Assembly (NCBI RefSeq): GCF_007860075.1
Contig: NZ_SJPP01000001.1
Location: 1,448,501-1,512,500 of the forward strand
DNA: 64,000 nt
DNA from: Symmachiella macrocystis
Lineage (GTDB): Bacteria; Planctomycetota; Planctomycetia; Planctomycetales; Planctomycetaceae
Reading direction: 5' to 3'
The notes below the pieces were generated by a model that was not told the origin of the DNA, searched no databases, and was given only the letters and a program-made list of their open reading frames with translations. Below, piece by piece: positions 56,096-61,168 of the stretch. A program made the position numbers and the translations under genes. Position 1 is the first letter of the stretch; every line of letters begins with the position of its first letter.

Positions 56096-56285
56096 GTGCG
56101 CGGCCGCCGCTGGTAAGAGCGAGATTTCCCAGGCCGGTGCGGTGTTATGAAAATAAACGGCGGTGATTTCGCAGCAGGCATGCCCACGCCAATTCCATCT
56201 CAATTAAACATGGGTCGCAAAACCACCGCCGTCGAGCACATAGGCTGATGAATCTGATTTAGCAGACAGCGGTGACAACACATTG

Positions 56286-56316
56286 GCACAGCTGTTTCAA
56301 GTTGTGCTAATTTTTT
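56286..56316 (+). terminator. Rho-independent terminator of the complex I-like operon
   Basis: GCACAGCT (56286-56293) pairs with AGTTGTGC (56300-56307), with one G-U, and is followed by TAATTTTTT. It lies 190 bp after the last stop. The rest of the 56096-56441 gap shows no gene. Confidence 0.55.
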
Positions 56317-56441
56317 AAATCTCAATCCCATGGCAGCTTCCTGCACCACGTCTGGCGGCCTAAGGATGCATTTCCCGCCGGGGTTGGCTACATTGACTTT
56401 CTGAGTCGACCGCACAACCGCTTTGGGAAATGGGAGTTGCA

Positions 56442-57533
56442 ATGCACGTCGTGACGTTCGGTGAAGTCATGCTTCGTATGGCGCCGGAAGAATTCATGCG
56501 GATTCCGCAAGCTCTGCCTGGGCGGCTGGAGATCACCTTTGGAGGCGGCGAGGTGAATGTGGCTGTCTCAATCGCCCGGCAAGGAGGCTCTGCGTCGTTT
56601 TTAACCAGCCTGCCTGACAATCCACTCACCGACGCCTTTGAGGCGGAACTCCGCAAATTCAATGTCGGAACCGAACTGGTCCAACGAAGCGACGAGGGCC
56701 GCTTTGGCGTCTATTACGTCGAAACCGGCGCCAATCAACGCGCGGGTACGGTGATCTACGACCGCGATTATAGTTCGATTTCCCTCACAGCCGCCGATGC
56801 ATACGACTGGGAAACCGCCTTCGCCGGGGCCAATTGGTTTCACATCACCGGAATCACCCCAGCGATCAGCGCCGCAGCCGCAGAGGCGGGTTTGGCCGCC
56901 ATAAAACAGGCCAAACAGCAGGGGCTGACTGTTTCTTGTGATCTGAACTTTCGCAAGAAACTGTGGAACTGGAAACCGGGAACCGGCACCAAGGATCTCG
57001 CACAGCAGACCATGCGGGAGTTCATGCCTTATGTCGATGTCATCGTCGCCAACGAGGAAGACGCCGACATGATGTTGGGCATTCGCGCCGACGACACCGA
57101 CGTGGAAGCGGGGCAAATCAGCGTCGCCGCCTATGAGACCGTCGCAAGAAAAATCGTGGCCCAGTATCCCAACGTCTCACAAGTCGCCATCACGCTCCGC
57201 GAAAGCCTCTCTGCCAGTCATAATAACTGGGGCGCTTTGTTGTTCGACGTCGCTCATGACCGCAGTTTTGCGGCGCCGCTGGATAAAAATGGAAACTACA
57301 AGCCTTACGAAATCCGCAACATTGTCGACCGGGTCGGTGGCGGCGACTCCTTTGCGGGGGCATTGGTCTTTGCTTTGAACACACCCGAATCGGCCGATCC
57401 AGAAGCAGCCTTGCGTTATGCCGTCGCCGCCAGTTGCTTGAAACACAGCATCAAGGGAGATTTCAATTATGCTACCCGAGCGGAGATTGACGCTCTGGTT
57501 TCCGGCAGCGGTTCTGGGCGTGTGCAGCGTTGA
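56442..57533 (+). CDS. kdgK: PfkB-family sugar kinase, KDG kinase-like
   Basis: A 363-residue ribokinase-fold kinase. 'VVTFGEVMLRMAPE' at the N-terminus, 'TFGGGEVNVAVSIARQGG' (the sugar-binding signature) and 'VDRVGGGDSFAGALVFAL' with the catalytic Asp. The N-terminus and the 'DLNFRKKLW' segment resemble 2-keto-3-deoxygluconate kinases. GGGAG 5 bp before ATG 56442 fixes the start. The role would be in uronate or Entner-Doudoroff sugar use; no partner gene is adjacent. Confidence 0.88.
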   Translation: MHVVTFGEVMLRMAPEEFMRIPQALPGRLEITFGGGEVNVAVSIARQGGSASFLTSLPDNPLTDAFEAELRKFNVGTELVQRSDEGRFGVYYVETGANQRAGTVIYDRDYSSISLTAADAYDWETAFAGANWFHITGITPAISAAAAEAGLAAIKQAKQQGLTVSCDLNFRKKLWNWKPGTGTKDLAQQTMREFMPYVDVIVANEEDADMMLGIRADDTDVEAGQISVAAYETVARKIVAQYPNVSQVAITLRESLSASHNNWGALLFDVAHDRSFAAPLDKNGNYKPYEIRNIVDRVGGGDSFAGALVFALNTPESADPEAALRYAVAASCLKHSIKGDFNYATRAEIDALVSGSGSGRVQR

Positions 57534-57608
57534 TGGCAGGTTAAAGAGTGGCCAGTGAAATTGTTGTTCTCGTCGGTTGGTTTTTGTTGGGCAGCAAGTG
57601 TTGCCCCT

Positions 57609-57668
57609 ACCCCGAAGGGGTAGTTCATCGTAGCCTAGGGTAAGCGGCCAAAGCCGCGCCACCCTAGG
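57609..57668. repeat. Two palindromic hairpins between kdgK and the NtrC-like gene
   Basis: CTACCCC-GAA-GGGGTAG at 57609-57625, and a branched stem CCTAGGGT / ACCCTAGG with inner GCGGC / GCCGC at 57634-57668. No T run follows. Confidence 0.6.
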
Positions 57669-57720
57669 TGGTTAGGATCAGCTGAAATTCTCGTTTGAAC
57701 GAATTGAAACTACGACATTT

Positions 57721-59112
57721 ATGAAACGCCGCCAAACTACGACCGGCAATTTGACGCGGCTACTTGGTGGCGGTTCGACGCCGCTGTTCGTGATGAACGC
57801 ACAGCGGAAGCTGTTGGTGTTTAACCGCGGTTGCGAAGAATTGACCGGCTTTACGGCGGAGGACATTGTTGGTCGGATTAGCCATTACGGCAGCAGCGGC
57901 GAGACTCCGGTAGAGGAACTAACGGCCGGACTTTGCCCCCCGCCCGAGGTATTGGCCGGTGAGCAACGCAGCGCTCCGGCTTATCTCAGCACAGCAACCG
58001 GCGCGTCGTTGCCGCGGATGTTGAATTTCTATCCATTTTGCGATGAGCAGGGACAGGTGATTCATGTGTTGGGCATCGTGTCGGCGATTCCCCAACCACC
58101 GCACGTAGCCGACCCTACGGCAGCTCAAACGGTGCATGCCGAGTTAGCCGCTTTGCGGGGCAATCTACGGCAACGCTTCGGACGGCAAACGCTGGTTTGC
58201 AAAGGCCCGGCGACAACGCGGATGCTAAATCAAATCGATTTGGCGCAGCATTGCCGAGCAGCGGTTTTTCTACAAGGGGAACCCGGAACCGGCAAGCAAC
58301 ATATTGCCCGGGTGGTACACTACGGCGGGGACGCGAAAAACACCGCGTTTGTTGCTGTGGACTGCCGGAAACTAGCCGCCTCAGAGATCGACCGCACCGT
58401 TACGCGTTTTTTAGAAGCTGCAACCGACCCTGCGGCGCGCGGACTGGGCATTTCCGCAGGGTCTCTCTTTCTGGGCCATGTCGAACATTTGCCCCGCGAC
58501 GTGCAGCGCCGCATTGTCAAAGCGCACGATGGGGAAGAACCGCCCGCATTGCGGTTGTTCAGTTCCAGTTGTTTTCCGCTGGCCGAGGCGGTCGAACGCG
58601 AAGATCTGCTGTTTGAATTACAGGCATTACTAACAACCGTCACGATCGAGGTACCGCCGCTACGGGACCGGCCGGAGGACTTGCTACTCCTCGCGCAGCA
58701 CTTTCTTGAGGATTTGAATCGCCGTGGCGAAAAACAGGTTGGTGGTTTCGCGCGCGATGCGGTGAAACTTTTTACCGAATACAATTGGCCGGGTAACTTG
58801 GAAGAACTCTTCAAAGTCGTTGGCGAAACGCATACCGCAGCGACCGGAGAGATGGTCCTGCCGGCGGACCTGCCGTTTCGTTTCCGCACCGGTTTTGATG
58901 CTCAACACCTTCCGCCGGTGGAACAGTTCACCAGCATTCCGCTGGAACAACTGACGTCCGAGTACGAAACTGAATTGATCCAACGGGCATTACGGCAATG
59001 CAAGCAAAACAAAAGCCAAGCAGCCGACCTGTTGCAAATCAATCGCGCGAAACTGTATCGTCGCATGGAAGTATTAGGGATTGATGATGCGGATTCGGGG
59101 GAGGACCAATAG
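57721..59112 (+). CDS. Degenerate NtrC-like protein: PAS, AAA+ and Fis-type HTH
   Basis: A 463-residue protein with the layout of sigma54 activators: a PAS domain (about residues 16-125), an AAA+ domain (about 150-390) with intact Walker A 'GEPGTGKQ' (186-193), and a C-terminal Fis-type HTH ('NKSQAADLLQINRAKLYRRMEVLGI'). The GAFTGA loop that contacts sigma54 is absent. Walker B reads 'GSLFLGHVEHL' instead of 'GTLFLDEIGEL' (Asp to Gly252, Glu to His253), and the sensor-II 'WPGNVREL' is 'WPGNLEEL'. It probably neither hydrolyses ATP normally nor opens sigma54 promoters. It is immediately followed by a deacetylase gene. Confidence 0.82.
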   Translation: MKRRQTTTGNLTRLLGGGSTPLFVMNAQRKLLVFNRGCEELTGFTAEDIVGRISHYGSSGETPVEELTAGLCPPPEVLAGEQRSAPAYLSTATGASLPRMLNFYPFCDEQGQVIHVLGIVSAIPQPPHVADPTAAQTVHAELAALRGNLRQRFGRQTLVCKGPATTRMLNQIDLAQHCRAAVFLQGEPGTGKQHIARVVHYGGDAKNTAFVAVDCRKLAASEIDRTVTRFLEAATDPAARGLGISAGSLFLGHVEHLPRDVQRRIVKAHDGEEPPALRLFSSSCFPLAEAVEREDLLFELQALLTTVTIEVPPLRDRPEDLLLLAQHFLEDLNRRGEKQVGGFARDAVKLFTEYNWPGNLEELFKVVGETHTAATGEMVLPADLPFRFRTGFDAQHLPPVEQFTSIPLEQLTSEYETELIQRALRQCKQNKSQAADLLQINRAKLYRRMEVLGIDDADSGEDQ

Positions 59113-59976
59113 ATGAATGGCAATGACGGAAAATTACACCAGCAGCATTGGATGTTGGCGGTCATGGGAGGCCTGGCGATTGTCTGCGCATTTGCGAATC
59201 AGGCTGCCGCCTTAGAACCGATCCCCGATAAGCTGGTGGTTTTGACATTCGATGATTCGGTGAAATCGCACTTCACCAACGCGCGGCCGATTCTCAAGGA
59301 TTACGGGTTCGGCGCGACCTTCTTCATCACCGAAGGGTTTACGTTTAAGACAAACAAACGGGACTACATGACGTGGGAAGAGATCGCCCAATTGCATCGC
59401 GATGGATTTGAAATCGGCAATCATACCCGCGATCACAAAGGGGTGACTGCTAAGAGTCTGGATCAGGTGCATGAACAACTCGAAGCGATCAACGCCCGCT
59501 GTAAAGAACACGGCATCCCACGCACCGTCAGCTTTGCATATCCCGGCAATGCGTTTGATCCGGACGGCTTTGCGCTGTTGAAAAAGGCGGGGATCAAGTT
59601 CGCACGCCGCGGCGGCGCGCCGGAGTATCCCTATGATCATGGACGGGGCTTTGCCTACGAACCGGGACGCGACCACCCACTGTTGATCCCCTCCGCCGGT
59701 GACGCGCGGCCCGATTGGCAGCTGCCGGATCTGATCCGTGCTGTGGAACAGGCGCGGGACGGCAAGATCGCTGTGTTACAATTTCACGGCGTCCCGGACA
59801 ACGAACATCCCTGGGTGCACACCCCGGAAGAAAACTTCCGCGCATTCATGAAGTATTTGCATCTGCACAAATACAAGGTGATATCACTGGGGGACTTGGC
59901 CAAGTACGTCGACGCGGAGCAAACACCGAGAAGTTACGACACAGTGATCAAAGAACGCAAAGCCGCCATGCCGTAA
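59113..59976 (+). CDS. Secreted polysaccharide deacetylase (NodB-type)
   Basis: A 287-residue protein with a signal peptide ('HWMLAVMGGLAIVCAFANQAAA'). The NodB catalytic motifs are 'VLTFDDSVKSHF' (Asp-Asp), 'EIGNHTRDHKGVT' (metal His-x3-His) and 'VSFAYPGNAFD'. It should remove acetyl groups from N-acetylated glycans outside the cytoplasm. The start ATG directly abuts the previous stop (TAG-ATG), so the gene is co-translated with the NtrC-like protein, which may regulate it. Confidence 0.88.
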   Translation: MNGNDGKLHQQHWMLAVMGGLAIVCAFANQAAALEPIPDKLVVLTFDDSVKSHFTNARPILKDYGFGATFFITEGFTFKTNKRDYMTWEEIAQLHRDGFEIGNHTRDHKGVTAKSLDQVHEQLEAINARCKEHGIPRTVSFAYPGNAFDPDGFALLKKAGIKFARRGGAPEYPYDHGRGFAYEPGRDHPLLIPSAGDARPDWQLPDLIRAVEQARDGKIAVLQFHGVPDNEHPWVHTPEENFRAFMKYLHLHKYKVISLGDLAKYVDAEQTPRSYDTVIKERKAAMP

Positions 59977-59997
59977 GGCGCACGATGAAATTCCTCC

Positions 59998-60114
59998 CCC
60001 TCTCCCGCTGGGAGAGGGCTGGGGTGAGGGTTTCCGCACAACTGTTGTCGATCATCACCACATTTCGATGGGGGAATTCCTTGTCCTACATAGTAAGGTG
60101 CGGTGCGACGCACC
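59998..60114. repeat. Degenerate copy of the composite repeat plus 18-bp palindrome
   Basis: CCCTCTCCC/GGGAGAGGG at 59998-60018, then AACTGTTGTCG, and a one-mismatch copy GGTGCGGTGCGACGCACC at 60097-60114. The same arrangement as at 24023-24140. Confidence 0.65.
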
Positions 60115-60148
60115 CTACACACATTGGGCTACTCACTGGCAAAGAACG

Positions 60149-60182
60149 CCGAAAGCACGAAACCGGAGTTTCGTGCTTTCGG
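60149..60182. repeat. Perfect 15-bp hairpin
   Basis: CCGAAAGCACGAAAC (60149-60163) and GTTTCGTGCTTTCGG (60168-60182) with a CGGA loop, between the deacetylase and the convergent HTH/receiver gene. It could be a terminator for the deacetylase operon, but no T run follows. Confidence 0.65.
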
Positions 60183-60330
60183 ATATGAATAGCGACACGT
60201 TGTCGATTATCGTCGTTTTGGCTCCGGGAGGTCGCGATTGGAAGCACCGTTGGTTGAGAGCCGGCGTTCCGACTTCCGCATTCCCGGTTGTTCCCAGTTT
60301 CCTTGCAACTTTGGAGTCTGGTCGTCGAGC

Positions 60331-60903
60331 CTAAGCAAGTTGCTTGCGACGACCGACCAGCGTGCGGATACGTTCCGCGAGCAGGGCAGCGTCGAAAGGC
60401 TTACGGAAGGTCTCGTTGAAGATCGTTCGGTCGAATCCGGCCGAATTATCTTCGTCGTTGAGTAGACCGATCAAAACTGTTTCGGCGTACTCGTTATTCT
60501 TTTTAAGGTTCTGTGCGATCATGATCGCATCGTTACGTCCCATGACAAAGTCGATAACGACACAGTCAGGGTGCAACGATTCGGCTTGAATGCCCGCTTC
60601 AAAGCCGCTGTTGGCGTATTCAAGTTTAAACACATCAGGGGGCATGTGTTCGGTCAGGTTGTTGCGAATCACCGTGTCAGACCCGACGAGCAAGACTTTG
60701 CCAACGGCTTCGTCTTCTAGCTCGCCCAAGGGCATACCGTGTTCTTTCAGGAACCGAATGAGGTGCTCGCGGGGAATTCGCCGGTCTTGCGATCCGGGAA
60801 TGCGATAACCTCGAAGGCGACCTGAGTCGAACCACTTGCTGACGGTGCGGGGCGCAACTTTACAGATCTTGGCTACCTGTCCAGTAGTGAAGATCGTCTT
60901 CAT
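60331..60903 (-). CDS. HTH (MerR/excisionase-type) plus receiver-domain regulator
   Basis: About 190 residues. The N-terminal 65 residues are a MerR/excisionase-type winged HTH ('IFTTGQVAKICKVAPRTVSKWFDSGRLRGYRIPGS', motif only). The rest is a receiver domain: 'GKVLLVGSD', phosphoacceptor Asp in 'CVVIDFVMGRND', and the lysine in 'FRKPFD'. A domain order of DNA-binding first, receiver last is the reverse of ordinary response regulators. GGAG 8 bp before ATG 60903 sets the start. No histidine kinase is adjacent. Confidence 0.82.
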   Translation of the reverse strand: MKTIFTTGQVAKICKVAPRTVSKWFDSGRLRGYRIPGSQDRRIPREHLIRFLKEHGMPLGELEDEAVGKVLLVGSDTVIRNNLTEHMPPDVFKLEYANSGFEAGIQAESLHPDCVVIDFVMGRNDAIMIAQNLKKNNEYAETVLIGLLNDEDNSAGFDRTIFNETFRKPFDAALLAERIRTLVGRRKQLA

Positions 60904-61168
60904 TGCCGGCTCTCCAATCACTTGTTCAATGTATGCAAACGCAGAGGGTCTTGCGGGCCCTCCAGAATCACACTCCGCCATGACGACCGGCTTTCCTAGC
61001 CCTCGGGTCCTAGTGGCGAACCGTCACGGCTGGGTCGGGGCATGCTTCTTGGTCAAAGACCGGCCTTGAGGTTTCTCGCCAGGCCAATCTTGCGCTTCAA
61101 TGAGGTAAGGAATCAATTGGGAACAAATTACGTAGTCGGAAGGTGACGGGCAGTGCCGTCAGGTGGGA

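Follow-up and report, generated by a model that had tools for sequence, protein, structure and literature searches.

The 64,000-nucleotide window of the Symmachiella macrocystis genome considered here carries, on its forward strand at 57721..59112, the gene for a 463-residue regulator that has some of the features of a sigma54-dependent bEBP (a Walker A P-loop, an AAA+ fold with its lid and a Fis-type HTH) and is missing others (the GAFTGA motif of loop L1, the hhhhDE signature of Walker B, the arginine fingers and the sensor-II arginine). The protein is probably a bEBP derivative that acts as a PAS-gated, DNA-binding regulator at sigma70-type promoters, its AAA+ domain having lost both ATP hydrolysis and contact with sigma54. 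The grounds for this reading are the residue losses themselves, their class-wide spread, the single clustering of the proteins that bear them, the purifying selection on the gene, the integrity of the predicted fold and the conservation of the HTH. A broader proposal is offered more tentatively: an old class-wide regulator may have passed from ring-forming transcription ATPase to hydrolysis-dead, PAS-gated scaffold, with a single origin before the class diversified, its DNA specificity kept, and a conserved regulon at housekeeping promoters that is perhaps linked to uronate and KDG through a neighbouring pfkB-family gene.

Domain architecture and residue losses

Translation gives an uninterrupted frame, in which Pfam places PAS_4 (residues 21-121), Sigma54_activ_2 (160-314), AAA_lid_14 (315-391) and HTH_8 (415-450), all above cut-off. 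The PAS domain, drawn at residues 15-125 (57763..58095, + strand, as are all features of the gene), scores 24.0 bits against a cut-off of 23.1 and corresponds to strands and helices 22-122 of an AF2 model; a helix seen in the same model at residues 132-153 (58114..58179), with a conserved HAELAALR, connects it to a catalytically degenerate AAA+ core (159-313; 58195..58659), followed by the lid (314-391; 58660..58893) and the Fis-type HTH (406-455; 58936..59085). Pfam detected no ACT domain in the protein up to an E-value of 0.1 and a PAS domain is present, so that the layout is not that of TyrR, with its N-terminal ACT and PAS domains.

The losses were located against a canonical reference set of 56 sequences (15 paralogues from the same genome, 34 proteins from named genomes and 7 others). 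Walker A is intact in the window protein as GEPGTGKQ (186-193; 58276..58299). Loop L1 is replaced by a shortened segment (218-247; 58372..58461), modelled by AF2 with a helix at 220-235 where the loop would protrude, and no GAFTGA-like string occurs in the translation of 57721-59112. The Walker B region reads GSLFLGHVEH where its canonical counterpart reads GGTLFLDEIGD, with D252 (55 of the 56 canonical sequences) replaced by G and E253 (54 of 56) by H in the degenerate GHVEH (252-256; 58474..58488). Arginine fingers and sensor II read nucleotide between subunits in canonical proteins. Here both arginines of the finger region (294-304; 58600..58632), R297 and R303, each found in 55 of 56 canonical sequences, are leucine, and the sensor-II residue R361 (again 55 of 56) is glutamate within WPGNLEEL (356-363; 58786..58809). 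A nearby R293-E-D-L, which by eye resembles the canonical FRxDL R-finger, was rejected as such, the orthologue alignment placing it out of register.

Much of the first-pass annotation of the window is borne out by these observations: translation and Pfam confirm its statement that PAS, Walker A and Fis-type HTH are kept, and translation confirms that GAFTGA is absent and that WPGNVREL has become WPGNLEEL. Its conclusion that sigma54 promoters cannot be activated in the usual manner also appears sound, judging from the missing GAFTGA, Walker B acids and sensor-II arginine. The losses lie far beyond chance, since they recur in orthologues.

Distribution and selection

Genome searches, whose E-value thresholds from family to phylum can miss divergent copies, gave a match in 88 of 101 family genomes at E <= 1e-40 (52 of 58 when counted by genus; 13 without a match), in 124 of 150 order genomes at E <= 1e-36, in 153 of 248 sampled class genomes at E <= 1e-38 (57 family members and 96 from outside the family), and in 19 of 199 phylum genomes at E <= 1e-36. 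Nine of these last belong to other classes, and the five of the nine that were examined (G454, G470, G480 and G483 being left out) all proved to be canonical bEBPs. Family copies are mostly full length and number one per genome, except for one split over two contigs. A first scan of named genomes found no orthologues, and a second returned mainly ordinary bEBPs together with one orthologue, L200. No published work on this regulator family was found in a literature search, most subscription journals lying outside its reach.

In-frame stops interrupt 5 of 89 family matches, some of these copies being either decaying or mis-assembled. Taken with the 13 family genomes that lack a match, they are what might suggest a pseudogene on its way out, a reading that was already disfavoured and is scarcely credible given that the other 84 matches are free of internal stops and that dN/dS against the nearest relative, L009 from the same genus, is 0.065 overall and 0.053 in the AAA+ core (synonymous sites are near saturation when a more distant genus member is compared). 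Orthologues and dN/dS rule out chance or the decay of a single gene, and the uninterrupted frame, the orthologues and the low ratio agree with the earlier description of the gene as intact.

Conservation is unevenly shared between domains. Within the clade the HTH ranks first, at 2.58 bits per column against 2.17 in the paralogues, and shows zero amino-acid changes relative to L009; the AAA+ core stands at 1.93 bits per column against 2.86 in the paralogues. This is the pattern that would be expected if DNA binding matters and ATPase activity does not, and it supports the claim, made from the window sequence, that the DNA-binding layout has been retained. It also bears on whether the protein might act as a dominant-negative partner that joins and poisons canonical bEBP rings. 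Candidate partners are at hand, PF00158 giving 14 strong matches of canonical type in the genome besides one more degenerate protein, the AAA+ fold is retained, and rpoN is found in 244 of the 248 class genomes; the HTH, conserved above its level in paralogues, argues instead for sites of the protein's own, and no bEBP gene was observed to recur beside it, so that we regard this role as improbable.

Loss of the ATPase signature across the clade

Family copies were extracted from 70 of the 88 matching genomes, and 68 were aligned after the removal of L034 (in-frame stop) and L063 (truncated by a contig end); of the 96 class matches from beyond the family, 40 entered the class alignment, chosen by similarity to the window protein and not by trait. 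GAFTGA-like strings occur in none of the 68 family or 40 class copies and in 13 of the 15 own-genome paralogues, and the segment spanning 218-249 has a median length of 31 residues in the family and 28 in the class, against 37 in canonical proteins. The Walker B aspartate at 252 is present in 3 of the 68 family copies and none of the 40 class copies, compared with 14 of 15 paralogues and 55 of 56 canonical sequences, and an acid of either kind occupies that position in 7 family and 2 class copies; D or E at 253 is found in 31 of 68, 30 of 40 and 14 of 15 paralogues. Because an acid at 253 often persists, the first Walker B acid is the one lost clade-wide, both being lost in the window protein. 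The first-pass statement that the Walker B acids are gone is thus correct for the window protein itself and too strong for other members; a canonical Walker B in orthologues, which it had named as evidence against its reading, was seen in none of the class copies read. Nine of the 68 family copies and 9 of the 40 class copies still have R303; the sensor-II arginine at 361 survives in 8 of 68 family copies (42 have Asp there), in 17 of 40 class copies and in 14 of 15 paralogues. New clade-specific constraints have arisen relative to canonical sequences, for example at Q171 and A175, and at Q326, E330 and Q339 in the lid. The linker LPFRFRTGxDAQ between lid and HTH (residues 384-395; 58870-58905) is strongly conserved in the family and not in most class homologues.

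The glycines of the P-loop are invariant in a 36-row alignment and the window protein retains the Walker A lysine (192), both of which would suit an ATP-gated, non-hydrolysing regulator in the manner of Rhodobacter capsulatus NtrC, in which ATP binding at the P-loop would lead to assembly and sigma70 activation; that protein is reported to require ATP binding and not hydrolysis (PMC10274813). The lysine, present in all 15 paralogues, is kept in only 45 of 68 family copies (the other 23 having Arg) and 23 of 40 class copies (17 having Arg or another letter), and arginine fingers and sensor II are missing from most copies, all of which makes an ATP-gated regulator the less likely option. Since the lysine drifts in this way among relatives, nucleotide binding, part of what the first-pass annotation had suggested, may be dispensable.

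The AF2 model keeps the AAA+ fold (mean pLDDT 87.4, pTM 0.61), with the caveat that its input of 36 sequences was mostly canonical bEBPs and may have pulled it towards the canonical fold; its AAA+ domain matches LuxO, NtrC1, NtrX and VpsR at Z 23 to 24, as ties or near-ties. One point against a dead ATPase is E/D255, which directly follows the Walker B strand, is conserved in 64 of 68 family copies and might conceivably take over from the missing acids. Its conservation and the near-universal rpoN of the class would also suit a protein that still activates sigma54 through an atypical loop and a reconstructed active site. We consider this very improbable, for the model shows a shortened, helical L1, the R fingers and sensor II have gone, and E/D255 is found in just 18 of 40 class copies. 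A search for rpoN-less genomes in which regulator and sigma54 would be decoupled was uninformative, rpoN being present in 244 of 248.

Phylogeny

Trees were built from the AAA+ core, lid and HTH after removal of the columns for L1, the two Walker motifs, the R fingers and sensor II. The first took in 21 of the 68 family copies; it is unrooted and came from a fast search that used no bootstrap. In it a branch with an SH-aLRT of 99 separates all 61 degenerate rows (21 from the family and 40 from the class) from 49 others, namely 34 proteins of named genomes and 15 paralogues of the Symmachiella genome, one of which, L092, is itself degenerate. The addition of 7 further rows left the single clustering of degenerate proteins unchanged. 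On the canonical side lies L280, a PAS-AAA+-HTH bEBP from a genome of another class (G496), which may illustrate how an undegraded relative would look; the tree does not place it as sister.

The Symmachiella genome encodes a second degenerate bEBP, L092 (G000:C1:2160511-2161467), which lacks GAFTGA, has QN for DE at Walker B and carries KQIA in place of YRLN. Its long branch falls on the side of the canonical rows, and because of that position it looks like a separate loss.

The PAS domain has its own variation. Cysteines at positions 38, 54 and 72 are found in 61, 55 and 44 of the 68 family copies respectively, with all three in 35, and residue 54 is serine in the window protein; the domain may have descended from a metal- or redox-sensing type. 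Two genomes that carry the degenerate protein (G040 and G059) also encode canonical PAS-bEBPs (L284 and L285) with a cysteine-rich PAS, GKPC..GPNC...GICNQEC.

Gene neighbourhood and upstream DNA

Upstream of the regulator lies a pfkB-family sugar kinase gene (56430..57533, +), and downstream a polysaccharide deacetylase gene (59113..59976, +) that abuts its stop codon. The first-pass annotation had coupled the regulator to the deacetylase. The adjacency is real, but just 3 of 84 genomes, each a member of this genus, show it, and the deacetylase was rejected as a general functional partner. In 16 of 84 genomes, spread over several genera, a pfkB gene lies no more than 319 nt 5' of the regulator and on the same strand, and it is the older neighbour of the two. 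This count covered 85 loci, 76 of them with more than 1.5 kb of upstream sequence, and was made by tblastn because the simple ORF caller erred at some loci, calling antisense ORFs at certain GC-rich ones and finding no anchor in 7 of 85. Beyond pfkB, no conserved gene neighbourhood, and no conserved adjacent bEBP gene, was found.

The closest solved relative of the pfkB product is 2-keto-3-deoxygluconate kinase (E 9.1e-85). A link to sugar acids through this gene is a lead and not a result, because the NCBIfam models it matches, for KDPG-aldolase/sugar-kinase and KDG kinase, all fall below their cut-offs.

A dyad scan for an autoregulatory palindrome, run on pfkB-upstream segments and on regulator-upstream segments without a preceding pfkB, yielded no convincing binding motif or target promoter, a point against the favoured reading, the best dyads occurring in 4 to 9 sequences; 100 upstream segments had been collected, 84 from before the regulator and 16 from before pfkB. 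A sigma70 promoter scan of 56200-60300 found 0, against a mean of 2.1 in shuffled sequences. The spacer between pfkB and the regulator (57534-57720) contains strong hairpins (z -3.55) and a 16-base piece present three times in the genome; its like is present in the sister species' spacer and absent from that of the third genus member, and the element is a repeat-like insertion. Further downstream, at 60331-60981 on the reverse strand, lies the gene for a small protein that combines an HTH_17 of the excisionase type with a weak receiver-like domain and is 100% identical over 216 aa in the sister species.

Proposed mode of action and significance

If the protein is the non-hydrolysing, PAS-gated regulator favoured here, its PAS domain would sense a signal and relay it through the helix at 132-153, the AAA+ domain would serve as a scaffold for self-association with nucleotide binding optional, and the Fis-type HTH would bind specific sites. 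By analogy with GAFTGA-less relatives, it might then activate or repress housekeeping sigma70-type promoters, by recruitment or by blocking.

PF00158 proteins are commonly named sigma54 activators, and one recent survey retains only those with GAFTGA (PMC12316311); under such habits this clade ends up mislabelled or excluded. The clade indicates that the AAA+ engine of a transcription factor can be dismantled while the remainder stays under strong selection class-wide. Were its regulon identified, planctomycete research would gain a widely conserved transcription regulator to study, together with a natural series in which to ask which bEBP parts serve roles other than sigma54 activation.

Comparison with known systems

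With the canonical sigma54 activators (NtrC, ZraR, NtrC1 and PspF; PF00158) the window protein shares the fold of AAA+ core and lid (Z up to 24), Walker A, a Fis-type HTH and a WPGN-EL motif, its best sequence match among them being ZraR (1ojl); unlike them, it lacks GAFTGA, the Walker B acids, the R fingers and the sensor-II arginine. L280 has the same PAS-AAA+-HTH layout, a similar PAS (RCRELTGF, LCPSGE) and a linker, ALQDELHTRYGF, that resembles that of the window protein, yet keeps GAFTDA, FLDEIAEM and WPGNIREL. A FleQ-style c-di-GMP site is mostly not conserved: of the FleQ contacts compared, the arginine after Walker A is kept, and LFRS and ExxxR do not hold their register.

VpsR of Vibrio cholerae (7v2b) likewise has the bEBP architecture minus GAFTGA, and its AAA+ domain superimposes on the modelled one with Z 23.1 and an rmsd of 2.1 over 222 residues, a predicted likeness in which it is tied with many bEBPs and not specially close. 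Its N-terminal domain is receiver-like and not PAS. Some bEBPs without GAFTGA control sigma70 promoters without ATP hydrolysis, according to one source, which describes VpsR as acting on such promoters with no requirement for ATP, and the NtrCs of Rhodobacter capsulatus and Caulobacter as regulating them with an L1 deletion around GAFTGA (PMC10274813). Loss of GAFTGA does not by itself mean loss of hydrolysis, because the GAFTGA-less Caulobacter NtrC keeps and needs both the Walker A lysine and the Walker B aspartate (PMC10274813). These NtrCs are response regulators, and the aspartate that Caulobacter's retains is lost in the window protein; the degenerate clade has lost more than Caulobacter NtrC. 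Relatives of the bEBPs without GAFTGA are already known, in VpsR and some NtrCs, and what sets this clade apart is the breadth of its distribution and the degree of its loss.
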